Origin: Hydrogenophaga taeniospiralis CCUG 15921
GTDB lineage: Bacteria > Pseudomonadota > Gammaproteobacteria > Burkholderiales > Burkholderiaceae_C
Direction: 5' to 3'
Length of the DNA: 64,000 nucleotides
NCBI RefSeq assembly: GCF_001592305.1
Contig: NZ_BCWR01000010.1
Coordinates: 1 to 64,000, forward strand
The notes under the pieces are model-generated. The model ran no database searches. It was given only the letters and a program-made list of their open reading frames with translations, and was not told the origin of the DNA. Positions 23,566 to 48,924 of this stretch are shown here, piece after piece. Position 1 is the first letter of the stretch. Each line of letters starts with the position of its first letter. A program made the translations under genes and the position numbers.

Positions 23566-23765
23566 GACTTGAACCCCTTTCCGTGTGCCCGCTGGCAATT
23601 ATGCTTCTGACACCCAGCGTTTGACGGAATACGAAGGGACTCCCACTTCCGGGCGACGGCATCGAAGTGCCAGGATTGGTTTTGGAAGTCAATCTGAAAC
23701 CCATGCCGGAAGGAGCAGTCCCATGACTCCGCCCAGCAGCGTGGAGCCGTCGCTCTCGGGTCCGC

Positions 23766-23807
23766 TTGATTTGAATCAACGGACTTGGGCCGTGCAGCCC
23801 AAAAAAT
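23766..23807 (+). promoter_or_regulatory. FNR-type promoter, copy 1 (perfect TTGAT-N4-ATCAA box)
   Basis: TTGAT-TTGA-ATCAA at 23766-23779 matches the FNR/ANR consensus exactly. AAAAAT at 23802-23807 lies where the -10 element should be if the box is centred at -41.5, the class II activator position. The transcript would start near 23814, about 50 bases before the nitroreductase start. The same arrangement recurs at 33617 with identical spacing. Confidence 0.65.
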
Positions 23808-23865
23808 GGCGTGCGGGCTGACCCAGAAGGTCTGGGCGAAGCAGACGACATGCTTGGGGGAAACG

Positions 23866-24978
23866 ATGATGAACAAGCTGACACGCAGGGCGTTGCTGGC
23901 GACCACACCAGGGGTTCTCGGGGGCGCTGCCACGTTCGGAGCAAGTCCGTCGGCCTGGGCCTCGGAGAGTTACGAAGCGGCGACGGCGCGCATCTGGCGC
24001 GCGGGGCCTTTGCAGGGCCTGTCGGGCGTCGCGCTGAGCCAGGAGCTGGTGCGCTACGCGACCCTGGCGCCGTCGAGCCACAACACGCAGTGCTGGAAGT
24101 TCGCGCTGGACGGACGGAGCGTCACCATCCTGCCCGACCTTTCACGCAGGTGCCCTGTGGTGGACCCGGACGACCACCATCTCTACGTCTCGCTGGGCTG
24201 TGCCGCCGAGAACCTGGTGCAGGCGGGGCTGGCGCTGGGCCTGGCCAGCGAGGTCCATTTCGATGCGGCGCGCGACGCGGTGGTCGTCAACCTGTCACCC
24301 ACGCCCGCCGTCGTCACGTCGTTGTTCAAGGCGATACCCGAACGCCAGTGCACGCGTGGCGAATACGACGGCAAACCCCTGAGCGCCCAGGACCTGGGCC
24401 TGCTCGAACGCGCCGGCAGCAACGACGGGGTGCGCCTGCTCCTGCTCACCGAGCGGGCCGCCATTGGCAGGGTGCTGGATTTCGTCGTGCAGGGCAACAC
24501 CGCGCAACTGAACGACAAGGCCTTCGTCAAGGAACTGAAGTCCTGGATCCGCTTCAGTGCCTCGGACGCGGTGGCGCGGGGCGACGGGCTGTTCGGCAAG
24601 TCGTCGGGCAGCCCCACGCTGCCGTCCTGGCTGGGCAATCTGCTGTTCGACTTCGTGGTCACGGCCAAGTCGGAAAACGAGAAATACACCCGGCAGTTGC
24701 ACAGCTCGGCTGGCGTCGCGGTGTTCGTGGCCGCCAAGGAAGACAAAGCCCATTGGGTGGAGGTGGGCCGGGCCTATGAGCGCTTCGCGCTGCAGGGCAC
24801 CGTCATGGGTGTGCGCAACGCACACGTCAACATGCCGGTCGAACTCGCGGCGTTGCGTCCCCGGTTCGCGAACGCCATCGGCCCGGGCCACCAGCGGCCG
24901 GACCTGGTGGTCCGGTTCGGACGCGGACCAACCCTGCCGCCCTCGCTGCGCCGCCCGGTGCAGGCTGTGCTGGTGTGA
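23866..24978 (+). CDS. Tat-exported nitroreductase-family (Acg-like) flavoprotein
   Basis: A 370-residue protein that begins with a twin-arginine type signal (MMNKLTRRALLATTPGVLGG). The body fits the Acg-like nitroreductase group: LAPSSHNTQCWKFALDG near residue 65 is the FMN-binding start, with a second half-domain towards the C-terminus. It probably binds FMN and reduces quinones, nitro-compounds or an unknown partner in the periplasm. ATG at 23866 or 23869 could be used, both after GGGGGAAAC. The FNR box upstream suggests induction when oxygen is low. The gene for an unknown membrane-anchored protein follows after 20 bp. Confidence 0.78.
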   Translation: MMNKLTRRALLATTPGVLGGAATFGASPSAWASESYEAATARIWRAGPLQGLSGVALSQELVRYATLAPSSHNTQCWKFALDGRSVTILPDLSRRCPVVDPDDHHLYVSLGCAAENLVQAGLALGLASEVHFDAARDAVVVNLSPTPAVVTSLFKAIPERQCTRGEYDGKPLSAQDLGLLERAGSNDGVRLLLLTERAAIGRVLDFVVQGNTAQLNDKAFVKELKSWIRFSASDAVARGDGLFGKSSGSPTLPSWLGNLLFDFVVTAKSENEKYTRQLHSSAGVAVFVAAKEDKAHWVEVGRAYERFALQGTVMGVRNAHVNMPVELAALRPRFANAIGPGHQRPDLVVRFGRGPTLPPSLRRPVQAVLV

Positions 24979-24998: not shown

Positions 24999-25862
24999 AT
25001 GAAGATCGCACTGGCCACCATCTTGGTCGTTGCCCTGGCATTCGCCGCGCTCACCGCATGGGGCGCGTGGAAATGGCGTGGCTTGACCCAGTCTCTGGTG
25101 GACCGGCTGGAGGCCAGCCGTGTGGCGCCGAGCCCTGCGCGCTTCGATGCGCAAGAGCTCGCGGGGTTGCCACCGGTGGTGCAGCGCTACTTCCGGGTGA
25201 CGATGCCCGACGGCGCGCCCATCGTCGCCGCGGTCACGGTGGAACACACCGGCACCTTCAACCTGGGCGAGACCGTCGACAACTGGACGCCGTTCAGCTC
25301 CTACCAGCGTGTGGTGACGCGGCGGCCGGGCTTCGTGTGGGACGGCCGCATGAACCTGTTGCCGGGGCTGGGCGTGCGGGTGCACGACGCCTATGTCGCG
25401 GGCGAAGGCGTTCTGCACCCCACCGTTCTCGGCCTGTTCACGTTGATGGAGCTGCGGGGCACCGGGGCGGTGGCGGAAGGCGAGTTCATGCGCTTCTTTG
25501 CCGAAGCGGCGTGGTACCCCACCGCCTTGCTGCCGAGCCAGGGTGTGCGCTGGGAAGCGGTGGACGAGCGATCGGCCCGAGCCACGATGACCGACGGCGG
25601 GCTGTCGCTCACGCTGACGTTCACCTTCGACGCACAAGGGCTGATGGAGTCGGTGCGTGCCGATGCGCGCGGGCGCACAGAGAGCGGCAAGATCGTCATG
25701 CGGCCATGGGAAGGCCGCTGGTCGAACCACCAGTGGCGCGAAGGCATGCGCGTCCCCCTGTCGGGTGAAGTGGCCTGGCTGCTGCCGCCCGAAGAGGGTG
25801 GGCGCAAGCCCTATTGGCGTGGAACGATCCGCTCACTGAGCTACGAGTGGGCGCCCTATTGA
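24999..25862 (+). CDS. Membrane-anchored protein of an uncharacterised family (DUF6544/DUF6920 type)
   Basis: A 287-residue protein with one N-terminal membrane helix (ALATILVVALAFAALTAWGA) and a large extracytoplasmic domain. The domain features LAGLPPVVQRYFRVTMPDG, VWDGRMNLLPGLGVRVHDAY and FAEAAWYPTALLPSQGVRW, then a C-terminal SGEVAWLLPPEEG. From memory this resembles the DUF6544/DUF6920 group; no activity is known. It lies 20 bp after the nitroreductase gene, probably in the FNR-box transcript. A truncated, frame-broken second copy occurs at 34751-34911 behind the second FNR-type promoter. Confidence 0.7.
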   Translation: MKIALATILVVALAFAALTAWGAWKWRGLTQSLVDRLEASRVAPSPARFDAQELAGLPPVVQRYFRVTMPDGAPIVAAVTVEHTGTFNLGETVDNWTPFSSYQRVVTRRPGFVWDGRMNLLPGLGVRVHDAYVAGEGVLHPTVLGLFTLMELRGTGAVAEGEFMRFFAEAAWYPTALLPSQGVRWEAVDERSARATMTDGGLSLTLTFTFDAQGLMESVRADARGRTESGKIVMRPWEGRWSNHQWREGMRVPLSGEVAWLLPPEEGGRKPYWRGTIRSLSYEWAPY

Positions 25863-27554: not shown

Positions 27555-27615
27555 GCGGCGATTGTGCGCCATATTCACCGCACATAAAGCGGTGAATATG
27601 GCGCACAATCGCCGC
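27555..27615. promoter_or_regulatory. Perfect 27-bp inverted repeat over the Fic gene start
   Basis: Positions 27555-27581 and 27589-27615 are perfect inverted copies with a 7-bp loop (ACATAAA). The inner part is ATATTCACCGC/GCGGTGAATAT. The right arm includes the ATG at 27598 and ends directly before the ATG at 27616. Such a structure could be an operator for the Fic protein's own C-terminal winged helix, a translation-blocking hairpin, or both. The exactness of the arms implies strong selection or recent origin. Confidence 0.75.
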
Positions 27616-28743
27616 ATGTTCCCCGAAAAACCCCAACCCCGCCGCACGTACATCTGGCAGCGCCCCGACTGGCCGCAGTGGCGGTTTGACGCCGCAGCGC
27701 TGGCCGCGCCGCTGGCCCAGGTACACCGTGCCCAGGGTCATCTGGCGGGCCGCATGGCCGAGCTCGGGTTGGCCCAGCGCGACCAGGCCACGCTGCAAGC
27801 CCTGACGCAAGAAGTCATCACCACCAGCGCCATCGAGGGCGAGGCGCTCAACCTCGACGCCGTGCGCTCCTCCATCGCCCGCCGGCTGGGCGTGGACATT
27901 GGCGCGCTGGCCCCCGCCGACCGCCATGTGGACGGCGTGGTGGACATGGTGCTCGACGCCACCCAGCACCACGCCCAGCCGCTCACAGCCGAGCGCCTGT
28001 TTGGCTGGCACGCGGCCCTGTTCCCCACCGGCTTCAGCGGCCGCGTCCGCATACAGGTGGGCGCATGGCGCAACGACGCAGCCGGCCCCATGCAAGTGGT
28101 GTCCGGCCCCGTGGGCAGAGAGAAGGTGCATTACCAGGCCCCGCCCGCCGCCGCGCTGTCCGCAGAGACCGCCACCTTCCTGCAATGGTTCAACGCCGCC
28201 CCGGCAGGCGACGCCCTCATCCACGCCGGGCTGGCCCACCTGTGGCTCGTCACCCTGCACCCGTTCGACGACGGCAACGGCCGCATCAGCCGCGCCGTGG
28301 GCGACATGGCCCTGGCCCGCGCGGAAGGGTCAGCCCAACGCTTCTTCAGCCTCAGCGCCCAGCTGCAGCGCGAGCGAAAACAGTATTACGACCAGCTCGA
28401 AACCACCCAGCGCGGCACGCTGGACGTCACGCCCTGGCTCAGCTGGTTTCTGGCCTGCCTGCTGCGCGCCGTGCAGGGCGCCGACGGCTTGCTGGCGGGC
28501 GTGCTGGACAAGGCCCAGTTCTGGCAGCGCTGGGCGGGCACGCCCATGAACCCGCGGCAAACCCTGGTGTTGAACCATGTGCTGGACGGCATGGAAGGCA
28601 AGCTCACCAACGCGAAGTGGACCGCGCTGGGTAAATGCTCGGCCGACACCGCTTTGCGCGACATCAACGACCTGCTGGCACGGGGCGTGCTGCGCAGGCT
28701 GGAGGGTGGGGGGCGGAGCACGGGGTATGTTTTGGTCAGATAG
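27598..28743 (+). CDS. Fic-family AMPylase with DUF4172 N-terminus and C-terminal winged helix
   Basis: A protein of 381 residues (375 if the ATG at 27616 is used). The N-terminal DUF4172-like part has YIWQRPDWPQWRFD. An inhibitory-helix motif of the class with the helix before the Fic core reads TTSAIEGEALN near residue 77. The catalytic motif HPFDDGNGRISR lies near residue 221, and the C-terminus is a helix-turn-helix (CSADTALRDINDLLARGVLRR). Fic enzymes transfer AMP from ATP to protein hydroxyls, and the Glu in the inhibitory motif restrains ATP binding. The winged helix suggests autoregulation through the inverted repeat at its start. It stands at the edge of the accessory region. Confidence 0.9.
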   Translation: MAHNRRMFPEKPQPRRTYIWQRPDWPQWRFDAAALAAPLAQVHRAQGHLAGRMAELGLAQRDQATLQALTQEVITTSAIEGEALNLDAVRSSIARRLGVDIGALAPADRHVDGVVDMVLDATQHHAQPLTAERLFGWHAALFPTGFSGRVRIQVGAWRNDAAGPMQVVSGPVGREKVHYQAPPAAALSAETATFLQWFNAAPAGDALIHAGLAHLWLVTLHPFDDGNGRISRAVGDMALARAEGSAQRFFSLSAQLQRERKQYYDQLETTQRGTLDVTPWLSWFLACLLRAVQGADGLLAGVLDKAQFWQRWAGTPMNPRQTLVLNHVLDGMEGKLTNAKWTALGKCSADTALRDINDLLARGVLRRLEGGGRSTGYVLVR

Positions 28744-28837: not shown

Positions 28838-29701
28838 ATGCAAACAGAAACCGATACTGAGTGGTTTGTCCCTGATACGTCAGTGGAGGTACGCCAAGGT
28901 GATCTGCTGGTGGCAAGGTCACTGCAAACGGGCAAGGTCGAGGAGATCTGCCTCGTTATTACAGCCGACTGTGACATCAGCAAAGGCAAGTTTGGTCGTC
29001 AACTCGCCTGCCTTAGAGTGCTGCCGATTGATCGGTATGTTCGGACGAACTGGGCAACAAAAAAGCTAGACAAGCTGAAATTGAGTGAACGCATCAAGTT
29101 GCGTGGCCAAGTTGCAAAATGGCATACGCAGTTTTTGGGCTCGGAGAGTTCAATTACTGCGGATGCCGCTACGGACTGGGTGATGCGCGAGGAACCTGAG
29201 GCAATTTGTGAAGCCTTGCAGGTTCCTGAGAAGGAGCGCAAAAAATTCAATGCTGCATTGAGCGCCTTTCGAGGTGCAATTGATGCTTTGGATGCGAACG
29301 CATCACGCGACAAGCTTGCTCAATTCGTCGCCTATAGAGCTGCTGTTCTCCGACGTGATATAGAGCAGAGTCGACAGGAAGTGTTGGCAGACGCGCAGAA
29401 GGAGTCTGAGGCCTTGCCCGAGGATGCCTTCCTACTTACGAGCCTTCCTCAAGTCTCGGAGGATGGTGCTGTAGTTCTGCTCCGAGAGATTGTTGGTATT
29501 CCGTATGAGGCAGTTTGCTATCGCGTGACGGACGCAGAGGCTGAGACTTCACTGCTACGCGTAGGGCGGCTGCATCCCACATTTAAATATGCAGTCTCGC
29601 AGGCGTTCGGGGCTTTGTACTCAAAGATCGGACTTCCCCCTACGTACGAAAAACGCTGTAAAGATGTCACTATGAGCTTGACGAGCATTACTTTGGAATA
29701 A
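28838..29701 (+). CDS. Unknown protein paired with an SF1 helicase (candidate defence cassette)
   Basis: A 287-residue protein I do not recognise. An early motif VRQGDLLVARSL followed by ICLVITADCDISKGKFGRQL resembles the QDCDI-type motif seen in small proteins of multi-gene defence cassettes, though I cannot name the family. A charged helical middle (RKKFNAALSAFRGAIDALD) and a C-terminal alpha/beta part follow. No membrane segments are seen. GGGAGGT lies 9 bp before the ATG. Base composition drops sharply compared with both flanks, so it is probably transferred DNA. The helicase gene starts 2 bp after its stop, so the two proteins likely work together. Confidence 0.7.
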   Translation: MQTETDTEWFVPDTSVEVRQGDLLVARSLQTGKVEEICLVITADCDISKGKFGRQLACLRVLPIDRYVRTNWATKKLDKLKLSERIKLRGQVAKWHTQFLGSESSITADAATDWVMREEPEAICEALQVPEKERKKFNAALSAFRGAIDALDANASRDKLAQFVAYRAAVLRRDIEQSRQEVLADAQKESEALPEDAFLLTSLPQVSEDGAVVLLREIVGIPYEAVCYRVTDAEAETSLLRVGRLHPTFKYAVSQAFGALYSKIGLPPTYEKRCKDVTMSLTSITLE

Positions 29702-29703
29702 GC

Positions 29704-31974
29704 ATGAAAAGCATCACGATTGACCAAAAGTCGATGTCTGCCGCTGCCGCGGGCCAGATAGATTTAGACAGTGTTTGTGACGCGCTGAAATTGCCGGTGT
29801 CAGATGATCAGATGAAGTGCGTCGAGGTTGGCGAGCATGGTTTCATTTTGTCGCGTTCGTTTCAACCTACTGACGCACTATTGACGATTAGTCTTGCTGC
29901 GGAGGGCCCGTTGACATGCCTGTCTACGCAGGGGCGCCAAGAGGCGCTCGGACGAGTCATGCGATGTGCAACGATGCTCGTGAACGGAAGAACTAGGTCG
30001 ATACCAGTCACATGGCGTGCCTATCACTCGAAGAACAGATTATCTTTCCAGGCTGACCGCTACCTCCGAACTTCGAATGGCGGTCGCACCGAGGTAGGTC
30101 GAGTCATTTTGGAGCTTACCCATGGTGGTGGACAGCGCGTCTTTGCGTTCCACCTTGATAGGACTGGTACCCGTGATCTATCCGCGTTTCAGCCTCCGCT
30201 TGAGTTGCAAAATGCAGCACTCGAAAATCTGGGGACGGCTCTATCGGTTGTTGTACCGCCGGCAACACCTGACAGCATTGGTCGTGCAGTTGCGCTCGAT
30301 GCGTCGTTGCCGATGAAGGCGAAGGGTCAACTGACTGTCGATGATTGGTACCGAACGCGACTTACTGCCCCGCAGCGTCGGTTCGTAGAGCACCCGCACG
30401 ATGGCAGTATTCGACTTATCGGGCCTGCAGGTACAGGTAAAACCGTTGCACTCGTTGTTAAGTGCTTGCGTGACTTGAAGCGGGCAGCGGCCAAAAATGA
30501 GATCAAGCGTTTCTTGTTTCTGACGCATGCCTCGGCCACAGCAGAAGCCATCGAAAATCTTGTCATTGAGATGGAGCCGGAAGCCGGTCTAGAGTTTCTC
30601 TCTTCGGAGCGTCCAAGCTTGGTGGTCTCGACGTTGTACTCCCTAGCGAATCGTCAGATGCGATATGACCTCGACGAACTTACGCCAGTTTCGCTTGATG
30701 GTCATGAAGGGCGCCTATTTCAGGCCGACGTGTTGAATGATGTCATTGAGGAGTACAAGCGTGGCGACTGGGTTGCCTACAAGTCGGGATGTTCACAACC
30801 GTTTGTAGCCTATATGGCCGCTGAGCGAGACTCTATGGAGCGGCGCTTCTTCCTATGGGAGATGTTGAATGAATTCGCCTGCGTTTTGGATGCGGAGGGG
30901 ATTCGAGGTGGAAATGCGCGACGTGAGCAGTATCTTTCGGAGAGGCGAAAAGGCTGGATGATGTTTCTTCAGACCAAGGAGGAGCGAGAGGTAACATTGG
31001 CGCTGTATGACAGATTCCGACTAATGCTTCGAGAGATGAAAGCGATTGGTGGAGATCAAATGGTGACGGATTTCCTAAATCACCTCGACAGTTTCCGATG
31101 GGAGGCGACTCGGGAGACAGAAGGGTTTGATGCAGTTTTTGTGGATGAGTTACACCTTTTTAATCGGCAGGAGCGAATGATTTTTAGGCATTTGCTTAGA
31201 TCGCCGACACAGAACCCGGCAGTCTTTATGGCGTATGACGCAAAGCAGTCCCCGCGGGATACCTTTCTGAAACTTCCCAGTGCCGAGACCAAGCAGCTTG
31301 ATTTTTGGAGGGATGCCAAACTCGGAAAAGTGGAAAAGATTGAACTGGTCGAGGTCTTCAGGTACACGCCACAGATTGCCCAAACTCTTGCTCGAATTGA
31401 TGAGTCTTTTCCCGGGCAAGATCTCGACGAAGAGTGGCCTAAGTACAGTGGCGTTTCCAAGATTGAAGATGGACAGATCCCAACAGTCTGTACGACAAGA
31501 TCCACGGTTGCAACTTACACGCTGGTATTTCAACGTGCTCGCTTGTTGCAGCGCGAGCTTGGAAAGGATGGACGAGTCGCAGTGCTATGTGCAAGCAATG
31601 AGCTCTTCAAACGTTATCTTGATTTTTCTGAACTTAGAGATTCATTTGTTGCCATTACCTCCCGCGACGAAGCATCTAGCATTTCTCACAGTACGCGCAA
31701 GTTCTTGTTCAGTATGCCCGAGTTCGTTGCAGGCCTTCAGTTCGACACGGTCCTTTTGATTGATGTGAATCAGGGAGAAGTACCTGATGGCCCATATTCC
31801 GCCGCGGCCCTCAGGAAGTTTGTATCGCAGGTTTATCTTGGTGCAAGCAGGGCAGAACGCCGACTTGAGTTCTATGCCGCTACGGAGCACGGCGGCATTG
31901 CTGCATTGCTGTCTCGCGCTGTTCATGAAAAGGCGGTGGAGGTCGTTGGAGAAGCTAGTTTGTCTAAAGGATGA
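29704..31974 (+). CDS. UvrD-like superfamily 1 helicase (candidate defence effector)
   Basis: A 756-residue protein. The first 220 residues are unrelated to standard UvrD/Rep and form a private domain. The SF1 motor follows: Walker A GPAGTGKT at 240-247, an AHT-like FLFLTHASATAEAIENL, Walker B DAVFVDELHLF near 476-486, motif III-like AVFMAYDAKQSPRD, motif V around FVAGLQFDTVLLIDVNQGEV and motif VI VYLGASRAERRLEFY. It should translocate on DNA or RNA using ATP. With the preceding unknown gene it forms a two-gene, low-GC, transferred unit beside Fic and toxin-antitoxin genes, which is typical of antiphage modules. No nuclease motif was seen. Confidence 0.82.
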   Translation: MKSITIDQKSMSAAAAGQIDLDSVCDALKLPVSDDQMKCVEVGEHGFILSRSFQPTDALLTISLAAEGPLTCLSTQGRQEALGRVMRCATMLVNGRTRSIPVTWRAYHSKNRLSFQADRYLRTSNGGRTEVGRVILELTHGGGQRVFAFHLDRTGTRDLSAFQPPLELQNAALENLGTALSVVVPPATPDSIGRAVALDASLPMKAKGQLTVDDWYRTRLTAPQRRFVEHPHDGSIRLIGPAGTGKTVALVVKCLRDLKRAAAKNEIKRFLFLTHASATAEAIENLVIEMEPEAGLEFLSSERPSLVVSTLYSLANRQMRYDLDELTPVSLDGHEGRLFQADVLNDVIEEYKRGDWVAYKSGCSQPFVAYMAAERDSMERRFFLWEMLNEFACVLDAEGIRGGNARREQYLSERRKGWMMFLQTKEEREVTLALYDRFRLMLREMKAIGGDQMVTDFLNHLDSFRWEATRETEGFDAVFVDELHLFNRQERMIFRHLLRSPTQNPAVFMAYDAKQSPRDTFLKLPSAETKQLDFWRDAKLGKVEKIELVEVFRYTPQIAQTLARIDESFPGQDLDEEWPKYSGVSKIEDGQIPTVCTTRSTVATYTLVFQRARLLQRELGKDGRVAVLCASNELFKRYLDFSELRDSFVAITSRDEASSISHSTRKFLFSMPEFVAGLQFDTVLLIDVNQGEVPDGPYSAAALRKFVSQVYLGASRAERRLEFYAATEHGGIAALLSRAVHEKAVEVVGEASLSKG

Positions 31975-32052: not shown

Positions 32053-32691
32053 TCAAGGGTGGTGATCCATCTTCCTGTTAGGTAGCTTGGCCATGGTGGA
32101 CACAAAATGGAGATGCTTCAGCCATTCATCCAGCCACCTCTTCAACGCCAATAACGGCAGCCCTTCAAACCACCCCGGCTCCACCGCCGCGAACTGCCGC
32201 ACAAACGGAAAGATGGCGATGTCGGCAGCGCAGGGGGCGGGGCCACCCAGTTGGCCGGTGCGTTGCAACTGCGCGTCCAGCGGCTTCAGCAACACTTCCA
32301 CCGCCTGCTCGCGGTGGTGCGCTCTGGAATCCACGCCATCGAAGCGCTCGGGGTATTTGTACCTATCCAGATGGTGTTTGAACGCGCCATCGCAGACCGC
32401 CAGCAGCTCCAGGTTCACCGGATTTTGTGCACGCGCCCACCAGCCTTCGGTGTCGCCGGTTTCAACAAAGGCCCAGCGCATGATGTCCAGGCTCTGCTCC
32501 AGCACCTGCCCGTCTGGCAGCCGCAGCACGGGCACCGTGCCCTTGGGTGACAGGGCCAGCATCTGCTTGGGTTTGTCGCGCAAACTGATCTCGAACGTAT
32601 CAAACGCCACGCGCGCGTGCAGCAGGGCCATCCGTGCGCGCATGGCGTAGGGACAGCGCCGGTAGGAGTAGAGCAGCGGGGCGGGTGTCAT
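32053..32691 (-). CDS. Glutathione S-transferase family protein, paralogue 1
   Basis: A 212-residue GST-fold protein. The N-terminal thioredoxin-like domain has RRCPYAMRARMALL (a Cys-containing active-site start) and the cis-Pro region GTVPVLRLPDGQVLEQS. The helical C-terminal domain ends FPFVRQFAAVEPGWFEG then LPLLALKRWLDEWL. It is strikingly similar to the GST at 48274-48924 over nearly its full length. Its start overlaps the yhaV stop by 4 bp, so it seems to be read from the prlF-yhaV transcript. Substrate unknown. Confidence 0.85.
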   Translation of the reverse strand: MTPAPLLYSYRRCPYAMRARMALLHARVAFDTFEISLRDKPKQMLALSPKGTVPVLRLPDGQVLEQSLDIMRWAFVETGDTEGWWARAQNPVNLELLAVCDGAFKHHLDRYKYPERFDGVDSRAHHREQAVEVLLKPLDAQLQRTGQLGGPAPCAADIAIFPFVRQFAAVEPGWFEGLPLLALKRWLDEWLKHLHFVSTMAKLPNRKMDHHP

Positions 32692-33194
32692 GGCGGGACG
32701 ACCTGTGACGCGCTCAACAACTCCGCCCAGTCCCCCGGCGGATGCCCGCTCGCCAGCATCCTGGCGAACACGCGGTAGGCGTCGGTGTGGCTCTCGTAGG
32801 CGCGCTTGCTGTCTTCGTCGTTGACCCAGACGTAGACGATGGTCTGGCTGGGTGCGTGGAAGCGGAAGAACAGCCGGTATTGCTGAAAGAACTTGGCGCG
32901 GAACCAGTGTTTGTTGCCGTCGCCGAGGGTGTTGCCCTGGCGGTATTCGGACCGGGTGGGGTCTTGCGGAATGACTTCAAACGCGAGCTGCCGGATGGCG
33001 GCGAGGCGTTTGGTGGCGTTCTTCTTCTGGTAGCCCTTGGGGTCCTTGCGCTGGAGTTCGGCGACCTGGGCTGTGAGCGCGTTGAGCTGCTGCAGGAAAA
33101 GAGGGTGGGCAAACAGCGTCCAGCCGTTGACGACGAGGGGCGCGCCGGCGGGTGGGGTGCCTGGCGCATCGGCCCGTTTGCGGGCCGCGCTCAT
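32688..33194 (-). CDS. yhaV: YhaV-family toxin (RelE-like ribonuclease)
   Basis: A 168-residue toxin of the YhaV family, which cleaves mRNA in a ribosome-linked way when not bound by PrlF. Family features visible are VVNGWTLFAHPLFLQQL, NATKRLAAIRQLAFEVIPQD, WFRAKFFQQYRLFFRF and IVYVWVNDEDSKRAYES. Length is typical. It overlaps the antitoxin gene by 4 bp (ATGA) and the downstream GST gene by 4 bp. It lies directly next to the low-GC helicase cassette, in the opposite orientation. Confidence 0.92.
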   Translation of the reverse strand: MSAARKRADAPGTPPAGAPLVVNGWTLFAHPLFLQQLNALTAQVAELQRKDPKGYQKKNATKRLAAIRQLAFEVIPQDPTRSEYRQGNTLGDGNKHWFRAKFFQQYRLFFRFHAPSQTIVYVWVNDEDSKRAYESHTDAYRVFARMLASGHPPGDWAELLSASQVVPP

Positions 33195-33520
33195 TCATCG
33201 TCGGCCGAGAGCGGCGCGTCCAGGTCCACCACCATGCCCTGGGTGAGCGCTTGCACGCGCTGGAGCAGGCTGGCGTCGAGCGCTTGCAGGTGCTCGGGGT
33301 GCTGGGCGATGTCTTGTGCAAGGAAGTGCAGGAACGGCTCAAGTGCGGGGTCGCCTTCGGCCTCAGGCTGGGCACGGGTGAGAACGACTTCGCCGTCGCT
33401 GCGGATGACGTAGCTGATCTTGTCGCGCTTGGTCAGGCCCAGCGCCTTGCGCACGGGCTCGGGCACGGTGGTCTGGTAGCGGTCGGTGAGGGTGGATTCG
33501 GCGGCGATCAGGGCGGGCAT
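33191..33520 (-). CDS. prlF: PrlF-family antitoxin (AbrB-like)
   Basis: A 109-residue antitoxin with an AbrB/SpoVT-like swapped-hairpin DNA-binding domain at the N-terminus (LTDRYQTTVPEPVRKALGLT, RDKISYVIRSDGEVVL). A C-terminal helical tail should wrap the YhaV toxin. The start at 33520 (MPALIAAES) fits the family; a longer reading begins at 33589 but runs through the operators. Two palindromic sites immediately upstream are probable autorepression targets. First gene of prlF-yhaV-GST. Confidence 0.9.
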   Translation of the reverse strand: MPALIAAESTLTDRYQTTVPEPVRKALGLTKRDKISYVIRSDGEVVLTRAQPEAEGDPALEPFLHFLAQDIAQHPEHLQALDASLLQRVQALTQGMVVDLDAPLSADDE

Positions 33521-33554
33521 GGGGTGCTCCGACGGTGGGACAGGCTTGCATGGT

Positions 33555-33590
33555 AATGCAGGTGCATTGTCATGGCAATGCGGGTGCATT
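33555..33590. promoter_or_regulatory. Two tandem operators upstream of prlF
   Basis: AATGCAGGTGCATT (33555-33568, perfect AATGCA/TGCATT arms) and AATGCGGGTGCATT (33577-33590, one mismatch) lie 22 bp apart, two helical turns. They are 35-70 bp before the prlF start. Toxin-antitoxin complexes usually repress through such paired palindromes, so these are likely PrlF/YhaV binding sites. Confidence 0.6.
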
Positions 33591-33616
33591 GCTCGGGGTC
33601 AACAGATTCGAGCCGC

Positions 33617-33658
33617 TTGATGTGAGTCAACGGGATTGGGCCGCGCAACCCAAAAAAT
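33617..33658 (+). promoter_or_regulatory. FNR-type promoter, copy 2 (TTGAT-N4-GTCAA box)
   Basis: TTGAT-GTGA-GTCAA at 33617-33630 differs from the FNR consensus at one base. AAAAAT at 33653-33658 is at the same distance from the box centre (29.5 bp) as in copy 1. The flanking leader through GGGGGAAACGATGATG is also shared with 23757-23871. The transcript would lead into the alpha/beta hydrolase at 33717. Confidence 0.6.
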
Positions 33659-33716
33659 GGCCTGTGGACCGAACTGGCAGGGCCGGGCGAAGCAGACCAC
33701 TTACTTGGGGGAAACG

Positions 33717-34706
33717 ATGATGCGCAGCGCCAGGAAGACCATGAAAGCGACGGCCTGGGGTGCCGTCGCCTTGGGCCTGCTGGTCGTGGCCCTGTGGACC
33801 GGCTGGCGCTTCCGGCAGGACATCGGGCGGGCCGGCGTGTTGTCGGCCGCGGGCAGCGAGCTGGTGAACACCCGGTGCGGCCCTATCGAGGTGCAGCAGG
33901 CGGGGCAAGGCATTCCGCTGCTGGTGATCCACGGCAGCGGAGGCGGCCACGACCAGGGCATGGCGTGGGCGCGACCCTTGACACAACACGGTGTGCGGGT
34001 GATCGCGATGTCGCGCTTTGGCTATCTGCGCACGCCCCGGCCGGCGGACGCCTCGCCCGAGGCGCAGGCCGATGCGCATGTGTGCCTGCTCGATGCGCTG
34101 GGGCTCCAGCGCGCGGCGGTGATGGGCGTGTCGGTGGGTGGCCCGTCGGCCATGCAGACCGCCATCCGCCACCCGGACCGCTTGAGCGCGCTGGTGCTGG
34201 TGGTGCCGATTGCCTGGAAGCCCGGCGACGTCGCGGCCACGGCGCCGCCCGTTTCCGACCGCAAAGACGCGCTGCTGCTGCGCCTGCTGGGTTCGGACTT
34301 TCTGTTCTGGGCCGGCCTGCAGCTGGCCCGCGATCAGGTGGTCCGCCACGTGCTGGCCACGCCGCCCGAGCAGGTGGCCGCGGCCAGCGAAACCGAGCGT
34401 GCGCGCGTGAACGATCTGGCCGACCGCATCCTGCCGGTGTCGGCCAGGGTGGCGGGGCTGCGCGACGACACCCGGCTGGGCAAGGGGCTCAAGGCCTATG
34501 CGCTGGCGCGCATCCAGGCGCCCACGCTCGTGGTGAGCGCGCGTGACGATGGCTTTGGCACCTACGCGCCCGCCGAGTACACGGCCAGCCAGATCGCTGG
34601 TGCGAGGTTTCTCGGTTTTGAGCAAGGGGGCCACCTGCTGGTGGGGCACGATGGCACCGTGCGCGATGCCGTGCTGGCTCTGCTGAGATCGGCTCACCGG
34701 CCCTGA
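33717..34706 (+). CDS. Membrane-anchored or exported alpha/beta hydrolase
   Basis: A 329-residue alpha/beta hydrolase. The N-terminus MMRSARKTMKATAWGAVALG continues LLVVALWTGW, a signal anchor. It has the oxyanion motif LLVIHGSGGGHDQGM, the nucleophile in GVSVGGPSA (Ser near residue 138), an acid candidate in SARDDGFGT and the His in GGHLLVGHDG. Substrate unknown. The start pair ATGATG after GGGGGAAAC is copied exactly from the nitroreductase leader, although the protein is unrelated. The FNR-type box upstream suggests the same oxygen-linked control. Downstream lies a broken copy of the 24999 gene. Confidence 0.8.
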   Translation: MMRSARKTMKATAWGAVALGLLVVALWTGWRFRQDIGRAGVLSAAGSELVNTRCGPIEVQQAGQGIPLLVIHGSGGGHDQGMAWARPLTQHGVRVIAMSRFGYLRTPRPADASPEAQADAHVCLLDALGLQRAAVMGVSVGGPSAMQTAIRHPDRLSALVLVVPIAWKPGDVAATAPPVSDRKDALLLRLLGSDFLFWAGLQLARDQVVRHVLATPPEQVAAASETERARVNDLADRILPVSARVAGLRDDTRLGKGLKAYALARIQAPTLVVSARDDGFGTYAPAEYTASQIAGARFLGFEQGGHLLVGHDGTVRDAVLALLRSAHRP

Positions 34707-34750: not shown

Positions 34751-34911
34751 ATGGGACTTCTGAAGATCGCACTGGCCACTGCCCTGGGAAGCGGTGGACG
34801 AGCGATCGGCCCGAGCCGCTATGACCGACGGCGAGCTGTCGCTCACGCTGACGTTCACCTTTGACGCACAAGGGCTGATGGAGTCGGTGCGTGCCGATGC
34901 GCGCGCCAAGA
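34751..34911 (+). pseudogene. Internally deleted, frame-broken copy of the 24999-25862 gene
   Basis: The first codons after ATG at 34751 (LLKIALATAL) match the parent's start. The sequence then jumps to the parent's later part: EAVDERSARAAMTDGELSLT and LTFTFDAQGLMESVRADARA, near identical to residues about 186-225 at 24999. Around 500 bp of parent sequence are missing and the two pieces are in different frames. Everything after ARA is also lost. It follows the hydrolase gene exactly as the intact gene follows the nitroreductase, so it is the end of a duplicated FNR-controlled unit. Confidence 0.8.
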
Positions 34912-48273: not shown

Positions 48274-48924
48274 TCACGCCGTGGGGAAAGCGGTCGTCTG
48301 GTTGGCCGGCAGCTTTGTCATCGCCGTGTTGAACAGGGTGGTTGACAGCCAGCCGTGCAGCCAGTCCTTGAGCGCAGGCAGCGGCAGTGCTTCAAACCAT
48401 GCGGGATCCACCGCAGCGAACTGCCGCACGAACGGAAAGATGGCGATGTCGGTGGCGCAGGGGGCCTGACCACCCAAATGGCCGGTACTTTGCAACTGCG
48501 CGTCCAGCGGACTCAGCAACACGTCCACCGCCTGCTCGCGGTGGTGTGCCTTGGAATCCACGCCGTCGAAGCGCTCGGGGTATTTGTACTGGTCCAGGTG
48601 GTGTTTGAATCCGCCGTCGCAGGCCGACAGCAGCGCCAGGTTTGTGTCGCTCTGCCCACGCGCCCACCAGCCGTCGACGTCACCGGTTTCCAGGAAGGCC
48701 CAGCGCACGATGTCCAGGCTCTGCTCCAGCACCTGGCCGTCAGGCAGCCGCAGCACAGGCACCGTGCCCTTGGGTGATAGGGCCAGCATCTGGGCGGGTT
48801 TGTCGCGCAACACGATCTCGAACGCGTCAAACGCCACGCCCGCCTGCAGCAGGGCCAAACGCGCACGTATGGCGTAGGGGCAGCGGCGGTAGGTATAGAG
48901 CAGCGGGGCGGATTCTGACCTCAT
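48274..48924 (-). CDS. Glutathione S-transferase family protein, paralogue 2
   Basis: A 216-residue GST-fold protein with RRCPYAIRARLALLQAGVAF, GTVPVLRLPDGQVLEQSLDI, KHHLDQYKYPERFDGVDSKA and IAIFPFVRQFAAVDPAWFEA. Roughly four fifths of positions match the GST at 32053-32691, including the whole active-site region; divergence is greatest at the C-terminus. This suggests a duplication within the lineage. Here it is a single gene, while paralogue 1 is attached to a toxin-antitoxin transcript. Substrate unknown. Confidence 0.85.
   Translation of the reverse strand: MRSESAPLLYTYRRCPYAIRARLALLQAGVAFDAFEIVLRDKPAQMLALSPKGTVPVLRLPDGQVLEQSLDIVRWAFLETGDVDGWWARGQSDTNLALLSACDGGFKHHLDQYKYPERFDGVDSKAHHREQAVDVLLSPLDAQLQSTGHLGGQAPCATDIAIFPFVRQFAAVDPAWFEALPLPALKDWLHGWLSTTLFNTAMTKLPANQTTAFPTA

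Follow-up and report, generated by a model that had tools for sequence, protein, structure and literature searches.

We analyzed a 64,000-nucleotide stretch of Hydrogenophaga taeniospiralis CCUG 15921 (contig NZ_BCWR01000010.1, positions 1 to 64,000 of the forward strand), which we refer to as the window, and focused on two adjacent genes, A and B, that encode a partner protein and a helicase. An earlier reading of this DNA (hereafter, the original prediction) had placed two open reading frames (ORFs) with a 2-bp spacing at this position and regarded them as a possible undescribed two-component defence system. Both ORFs are present and intact, starting at ATG 28838 and ATG 29704, and are arranged as follows:

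28838..29701, + strand: gene A, encoding a 287-aa protein of a family without a name; a MazF/Kid fold with a helical insertion is predicted
29702..29703, + strand: intergenic gap of 2 bp; A and B are spaced -8 to +8 bp apart in 14 of 15 complete pairs, and the spacing of the fifteenth, -65 bp, depends on the start chosen
29704..31974, + strand: gene B, encoding a 756-aa superfamily 1 (SF1), UvrD/Rep-type helicase (PF00580, E 5.3e-9)

We infer that A and B are translationally coupled. The genes also have the lower GC content that had been claimed for them (0.515 for A and 0.519 for B): across 28.5-32.5 kb, 1-kb intervals have a GC content of 0.49-0.55, compared with 0.62-0.71 on both sides, and GC at third codon positions is 0.521 in A and 0.526 in B versus 0.789-0.873 in nine flanking genes. 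A scan for consensus promoters and terminators gave a number of sites not above that in shuffled sequences.

Searches based on A yielded 20 loci, the window included: nine genome contigs, one viral contig, this genome twice, genomes G268, G718 and G552, four plasmids, and a fragment in G863. B lies directly downstream of A in 17 of the 20, among them one locus with A in two pieces (L009) and one with B in two pieces (L029); in L008, L022 and L023, B extends past the stored stretch. Two loci, L004 and L031, have a truncated A (ORFs of 146 and 200 aa) and no B was found in them, and the G863 fragment lies at the edge of a contig too short to show B. Conversely, B as query retrieved 91 plasmid records; in each of the seven that we inspected, a hidden Markov model (HMM) detects an A-like ORF upstream, and three of these seven plasmids are also among the 20 loci. 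Within a sample of 399 genomes of the order, A and B occur in the same two genomes. The A-then-B order persists in relatives whose A is only 17% identical, and it occurs on chromosomes, on plasmids and on one viral contig; this bears out the expectation that the two families would co-occur in other genomes. Protein distances of A and B across the 15 complete pairs are strongly correlated (r = 0.971; none of 5,000 permutations as high), and the two genes are jointly inherited. They are also under purifying selection: in three locus pairs, the ratio of nonsynonymous to synonymous substitution rates (dN/dS) is 0.13-0.14 (A) and 0.07-0.12 (B), and an E. coli pair gives 0.24 for B; synonymous sites were saturated in a fourth locus pair.

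B is an SF1 helicase of the UvrD/Rep type, with the following features:

29704..30327, + strand: N-terminal domain, residues 1-208, conserved, with no family match
30421..30444, + strand: Walker A motif GPAGTGKT, residues 240-247; G240, G243, G245, K246 and T247 invariant
31141..31155, + strand: motif II, VDELH, residues 480-484; D481 and E482 invariant

The PF00580 match scores 36.6 bits against a cut-off of 23, and Foldseek retrieved UvrD, PcrA and Rep structures from the PDB with E values down to 2.5e-15, in agreement with a UvrD-like fold; structure rows for B in the VIA list cover residues 209-755. As the original prediction had held, the full set of SF1 motor motifs is present, and it is invariant in an alignment of 66 sequences, in which D481, E482, H484, D512, K514, Q515, F552, R553, G677, Q679, R716 and A717 are further invariant positions. 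The unrelated N-terminal domain that it had noted also stands, at about 208 residues: this region (residues 1-209) and its counterparts in six relatives, seven members in all, matched no Pfam family up to E 5, and the domain in B gave no match to PDB sequences below E 1.

The original prediction had been unable to place the partner protein, in which it had pointed out a TADCDIS motif. We found this motif at residues 42-48, with TADCDI invariant in an alignment of 75 sequences. The features of A are:

28892..28903, + strand: RQGD motif, residues 19-22; Q20 and G21 invariant in the widest alignment
28961..28975, + strand: TADCD motif, residues 42-46; A43, C45 and D46 invariant, D44 replaced by R in three distant members
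29027..29425, + strand: helical insertion in the MazF-like barrel, residues 64-196, from the secondary structure of the model

Among 24 diverse members, the invariant residues are R19, Q20, G21, D22, T42, A43, D44, C45, D46, K51, R244, Q255 and G265. In a more diverse set of 18 (17-54% identity to A of the window), the start Met, Q20, G21, A43, C45, D46, Q255 and G265 remain invariant and K51 and R216 nearly so; it is in three of these 18 that TARCD replaces TADCD. The predicted model of A agrees with a MazF barrel fold: in its VIA alignment with MazF, only 104 residues are aligned across model residues 17..263, and A carries an insertion of about 130 residues relative to MazF. A is thus predicted to have a MazF-like fold, which would place the partner. 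The MazF fold is known mainly from toxin-antitoxin ribonucleases, and the MazF groove binds single-stranded nucleic acid. Five PemK proteins share an invariant Arg before the second strand; this Arg is catalytic in MazF. By motif register it falls on E36 of A, a residue that is E in 59 of 75 sequences and mixed in the wider set; the register was set by hand from the GD motif and the next strand rather than by structural alignment. Since the PemK Arg falls on E36, A seems, as far as the model goes, to share MazF's fold but not its site.

The distribution of the pair is rare, scattered and transfer-like. A was found in one of 67 genomes of the genus (44 of the 67 have a completeness of at least 90% and a contamination of at most 5%), namely this one, and the other 66 are without A; together with the low GC content here, this sets the pair apart from a core-genome locus of normal composition. 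Elsewhere, with this genome counted, A occurs in 2/399 genomes of the order, 2/369 of the class and 3/398 of the phylum. Genome contigs with the A family come from Pseudomonas, Salinicola, Altererythrobacter, Rhodoferax and Burkholderiales metagenome-assembled genomes; plasmids with the A-B family come from Agrobacterium, Undibacterium, Azoarcus, Paraburkholderia, Shewanella and E. coli. One IMG/VR contig encodes a relative of A. A tblastn search of phage records with A gave no match at E 1e-3, and the model of A had no hit at E <= 0.001 in a viral Foldseek library. DNA closely similar to the pAPEC-O2-ColV pair occurs in 113 of 5426 complete E. coli genomes, every place being on a plasmid, and 109 have at least 80% of the query; of the 40 matches listed, nearly all carry the RefSeq names 'hypothetical protein' and 'UvrD-helicase domain-containing protein' for the two genes. 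On E. coli plasmid p_dm874_NDM5 (L025 4569-7620), A is interrupted (ORFs of 77 and 146 aa) and the helicase gene is open; tet(B) lies at the edge of the retrieved L025 sequence.

A second pair is present in the same genome (contig C15, L018 8406-11283), with a 253-aa A and a 707-aa B that overlap by 8 bp. It is only distantly related to the window pair (21% identity for A and 24% for B) and has a GC content of 0.47 in a locus of 0.61. Directly upstream of it (L018 7321-8091) is a 256-aa ORF with a Cys-rich start and, after it, what may be an HNH-like stretch. Both genes are at least 0.04 below the locus GC in seven of the 15 pairs (window, L003, L010, L018, L026, L030 and L032).

We compared A and B with named systems in PADLOC 2023 and NCBIfam June 2026, and neither protein fits one, in line with the original prediction that the pair is unnamed; searches of the open-licence PMC literature brought up no title or abstract opening on a pair of a MazF-fold protein and a UvrD helicase. 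Like Gabija, the module consists of two genes, a UvrD-like SF1 helicase and a partner, and the nearest PADLOC models of B of the window are GajB. Unlike the OLD-family nuclease GajA, A is small with a predicted MazF fold, and B has an N-terminal domain of about 208 residues that matches no family. We rejected membership in Gabija, as A has no OLD-type ATPase or TOPRIM match in Pfam or PADLOC and its model has a MazF fold. Hachiman likewise combines a partner of formerly unknown function with a sensor helicase, but HamB is an SF2 enzyme and B is SF1, and membership was rejected because A has no match to DUF1837 (which we take to be PF08878) in Pfam or PADLOC up to E 1. PMC12278908 describes HamA as DUF1837, and HamB as sensing DNA damage and restraining, then activating, the nuclease HamA. 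Helicase + DUF2290 is a two-gene antiphage system with PF00580/PF13361 helicase domains, according to PMC10952713. It shares with our pair the two genes and the PF00580 helicase, but PF10053 does not match A; ORFs of six DUF2290 loci scored at most 3.6 bits with the HMMs of A and B, and membership was rejected on these grounds. The predicted barrel of A covers almost the whole MazF chain; A nevertheless differs from the MazF/PemK/Kid toxins in its insertion, in having no detectable sequence similarity to them, in not keeping the PemK Arg, and in being partnered by a helicase instead of an antitoxin. The E. coli ColV-type pair WP_001610297 / WP_001610298 consists of remote homologues of A and B with the gene order conserved; its A is only 17% identical, and it is unnamed too.

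The neighbours of the pair in the window are:

27562-28743: Fic gene, upstream of A (PF02661 and DUF4172)
32053-32691, - strand: glutathione S-transferase (GST) gene, downstream of B
32688-33589, - strand: YhaV/PrlF toxin-antitoxin pair, beyond the GST gene

The pair had been described as lying between a Fic gene and a toxin-antitoxin pair. The Fic gene does flank A; the toxin-antitoxin pair does not adjoin B but is one gene away, because the GST gene intervenes. At the start of the Fic gene is a perfect 27-bp inverted repeat with a 7-bp loop (window 27555-27615), and a second Fic copy, 92% identical, is on contig C11 of the same genome. The window has two GST gene copies (32053-32691 and 48346-48911) with 84% DNA identity over 566 bp. 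It also has two pairs of direct repeats, 23762-23871 / 33613-33722 (83% identity) and 25546-25671 / 34780-34905 (96% identity), each about 9-10 kb apart, around the region with Fic, A-B, GST and YhaV/PrlF. They suggest an old duplication or rearrangement and do not neatly bracket the A-B pair. We searched both flanks for an empty site in 30 relatives each, and only G777, of the same genus, brings together pieces of both flanks. G777 retains a large part of window 19.4-27.5 kb, collinear and with 75-98% DNA identity, and has no A anywhere. On its contig C45 (L069 1-6000), a 127-bp GST piece comes after the match to window 19.4-27.5 kb, and a 250-bp Fic piece after that, the reverse of the order in the window, and the contig ends before the expected place of the pair. 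Because the GST and Fic pieces are swapped, the site has been rearranged among relatives, and this edge arrangement is a sign of repeated rearrangement.

Around the other copies, we scanned 127 ORFs of at least 120 aa, chosen by length from 11 loci (L004 left out), against PADLOC and Pfam. Among the first 25 families listed for these ORFs, five neighbours match phage integrase and two DUF927. A Tmn ATPase is immediately upstream of the pair in L009, type I methylase and specificity genes are about 5 kb away in L011, and an LmuA-like ORF is about 9.5 kb away in L003; these Tmn, methylase and specificity genes were the three matches among ten neighbours tested singly against PADLOC at 1e-20. RmrA/RmrT and PDC-M05 matches also occur somewhere among the neighbour ORFs of the 11 loci. 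In three plasmids, one of them also with Fic and integrase, a multiubiquitin/ThiF/DUF6527 operon adjoins the pair or lies within about 3 kb of it:

L028 11309-13636: multiubiquitin/ThiF/DUF6527 operon
L029 2803-5427: multiubiquitin/ThiF/DUF6527 operon
L030 5600-7927: multiubiquitin/ThiF/DUF6527 operon

L028 and L030 have a further UvrD-helicase gene (1133 aa), with a gene for a 191-aa hypothetical protein in front of it.

On balance, we lean slightly toward the interpretation that A and B are the two subunits of a horizontally transferred genetic-conflict system, directed most likely against phages or plasmids, with B as sensor and motor and A as the partner that it controls. B would load on DNA that is single-stranded or damaged, for example intermediates of phage replication or recombination, and burn ATP. 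A would act under its control by means of the MazF-like barrel, with a replacement active or binding site made up of Q20-G21-D22, T42-A43-D44-C45-D46, K51 and Q255, and the helical insertion of A, the N-terminal domain of B, or both, probably hold the two proteins together. Motor activity of B would release or deliver A, which would then cut or block nucleic acid. A helicase sensor combined with an effector is the reading best supported; such a module would resemble Gabija and Hachiman in outline, and by the features tested it belongs to neither. With Hachiman-type logic, B would release a MazF-fold effector with a Cys-Asp site. A defence role is plausible: none of the outcomes that would have refuted the original prediction was seen with the libraries used, as no named system matched, the two families co-occur elsewhere and the pair is not core genome. 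The antiphage role rests on analogy with Gabija and Hachiman and on suggestive neighbours.

Several observations weigh against this interpretation. No PADLOC model matches A well, and B matches PADLOC helicase models weakly, the best for B of the window being GajB at E 1e-4. The resemblance of A to MazF rests on the predicted fold, because sequence-level searches gave no signal: Pfam PF02452 did not match A up to E 1, pairwise BLASTP of A against PemK gave nothing, sequence-profile searches of the PDB retrieved no MazF chain, and hhalign of two A alignments against five PemK proteins gave a probability below 1%, in a comparison made with a thin PemK alignment (nine loci fetched, five used) and with the insertion that splits the A domain left in. 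A Foldseek search with the A model likewise gave no hit at E <= 0.001. Because MazF's invariant Arg is not conserved in A, nuclease activity of A is unproven. Eight of the 15 pairs have a GC content close to that of their locus, no empty site could be demonstrated from the flanks of 30 relatives each, and the correlation of A and B distances can also arise from shared ancestry alone. Seven of the ten singly tested neighbours matched nothing at 1e-20; since the scan had no control set and the surroundings of L006 and L008 look like ordinary chromosome, we claim no enrichment, and the defence-type neighbours are only suggestive, pointing toward defence.

Some of these points would suit other explanations. 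A could be a non-catalytic nucleic-acid-binding adaptor that loads or regulates B, in a complex serving mobile-element maintenance, replication or repair instead of immunity. The missing Arg, the full UvrD-type motor of B, and the occurrence of the pair on plasmids and one viral contig with integrases among the neighbours all fit such an adaptor; we consider it rather unlikely, as the invariant C45-D46 and Q20 and the near-invariant K51 are, in our judgement, more like an active site than a binding surface, and the pair turns up only sporadically in the genomes sampled at genus, order, class and phylum level, which would be unexpected of a core replication function. The same plasmid copies, the predicted MazF fold, and a gene order and coupling resembling toxin-antitoxin operons could instead indicate an addiction module, in which A is a MazF-type toxin restrained by B or its N-terminal domain. 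We find this distinctly improbable, given that no third, MazE-type gene is seen in the A-B unit, that A does not retain the PemK Arg, and that a 756-aa helicase would be an unusual antitoxin; the truncated A of L004 and L031, which lack B, fits addiction and decay of an unused gene equally. Very little probability attaches to a transcription or RNA-polymerase rescue module with B acting like HelD. Least credible is a diverged Gabija variant in which B corresponds to GajB and A replaces GajA. GajB is the best PADLOC match of B of the window and of several relatives, and GajB structures are in the VIA list for B, but these matches are weak and over parts of the shared motor (down to 3.5e-14 in the E. 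coli relative), AbiO comes first for L010 and L028, and A (287 aa, MazF fold predicted), which matches neither an ATPase nor TOPRIM, is without GajA's defining domains.

To the original prediction our analysis adds the predicted MazF-like fold of the partner and the reach of the family to E. coli plasmids. Returning to the genetic-conflict interpretation, we raise tentatively, as a possibility we would not yet bet on, that the pair is a new and widespread form of two-component immunity, in which foreign or damaged DNA is sensed by an SF1 helicase that then activates an effector of MazF fold, its catalytic centre rebuilt around the Cys-Asp of TA[DR]CD; this effector may attack a substrate other than mRNA. 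If true, a class with a MazF-fold effector would be added to helicase-plus-effector defence, and toxin-antitoxin folds would be tied to helicase-sensor immunity. The homologous pair on E. coli plasmids offers a direct route to test this with a standard coliphage set.
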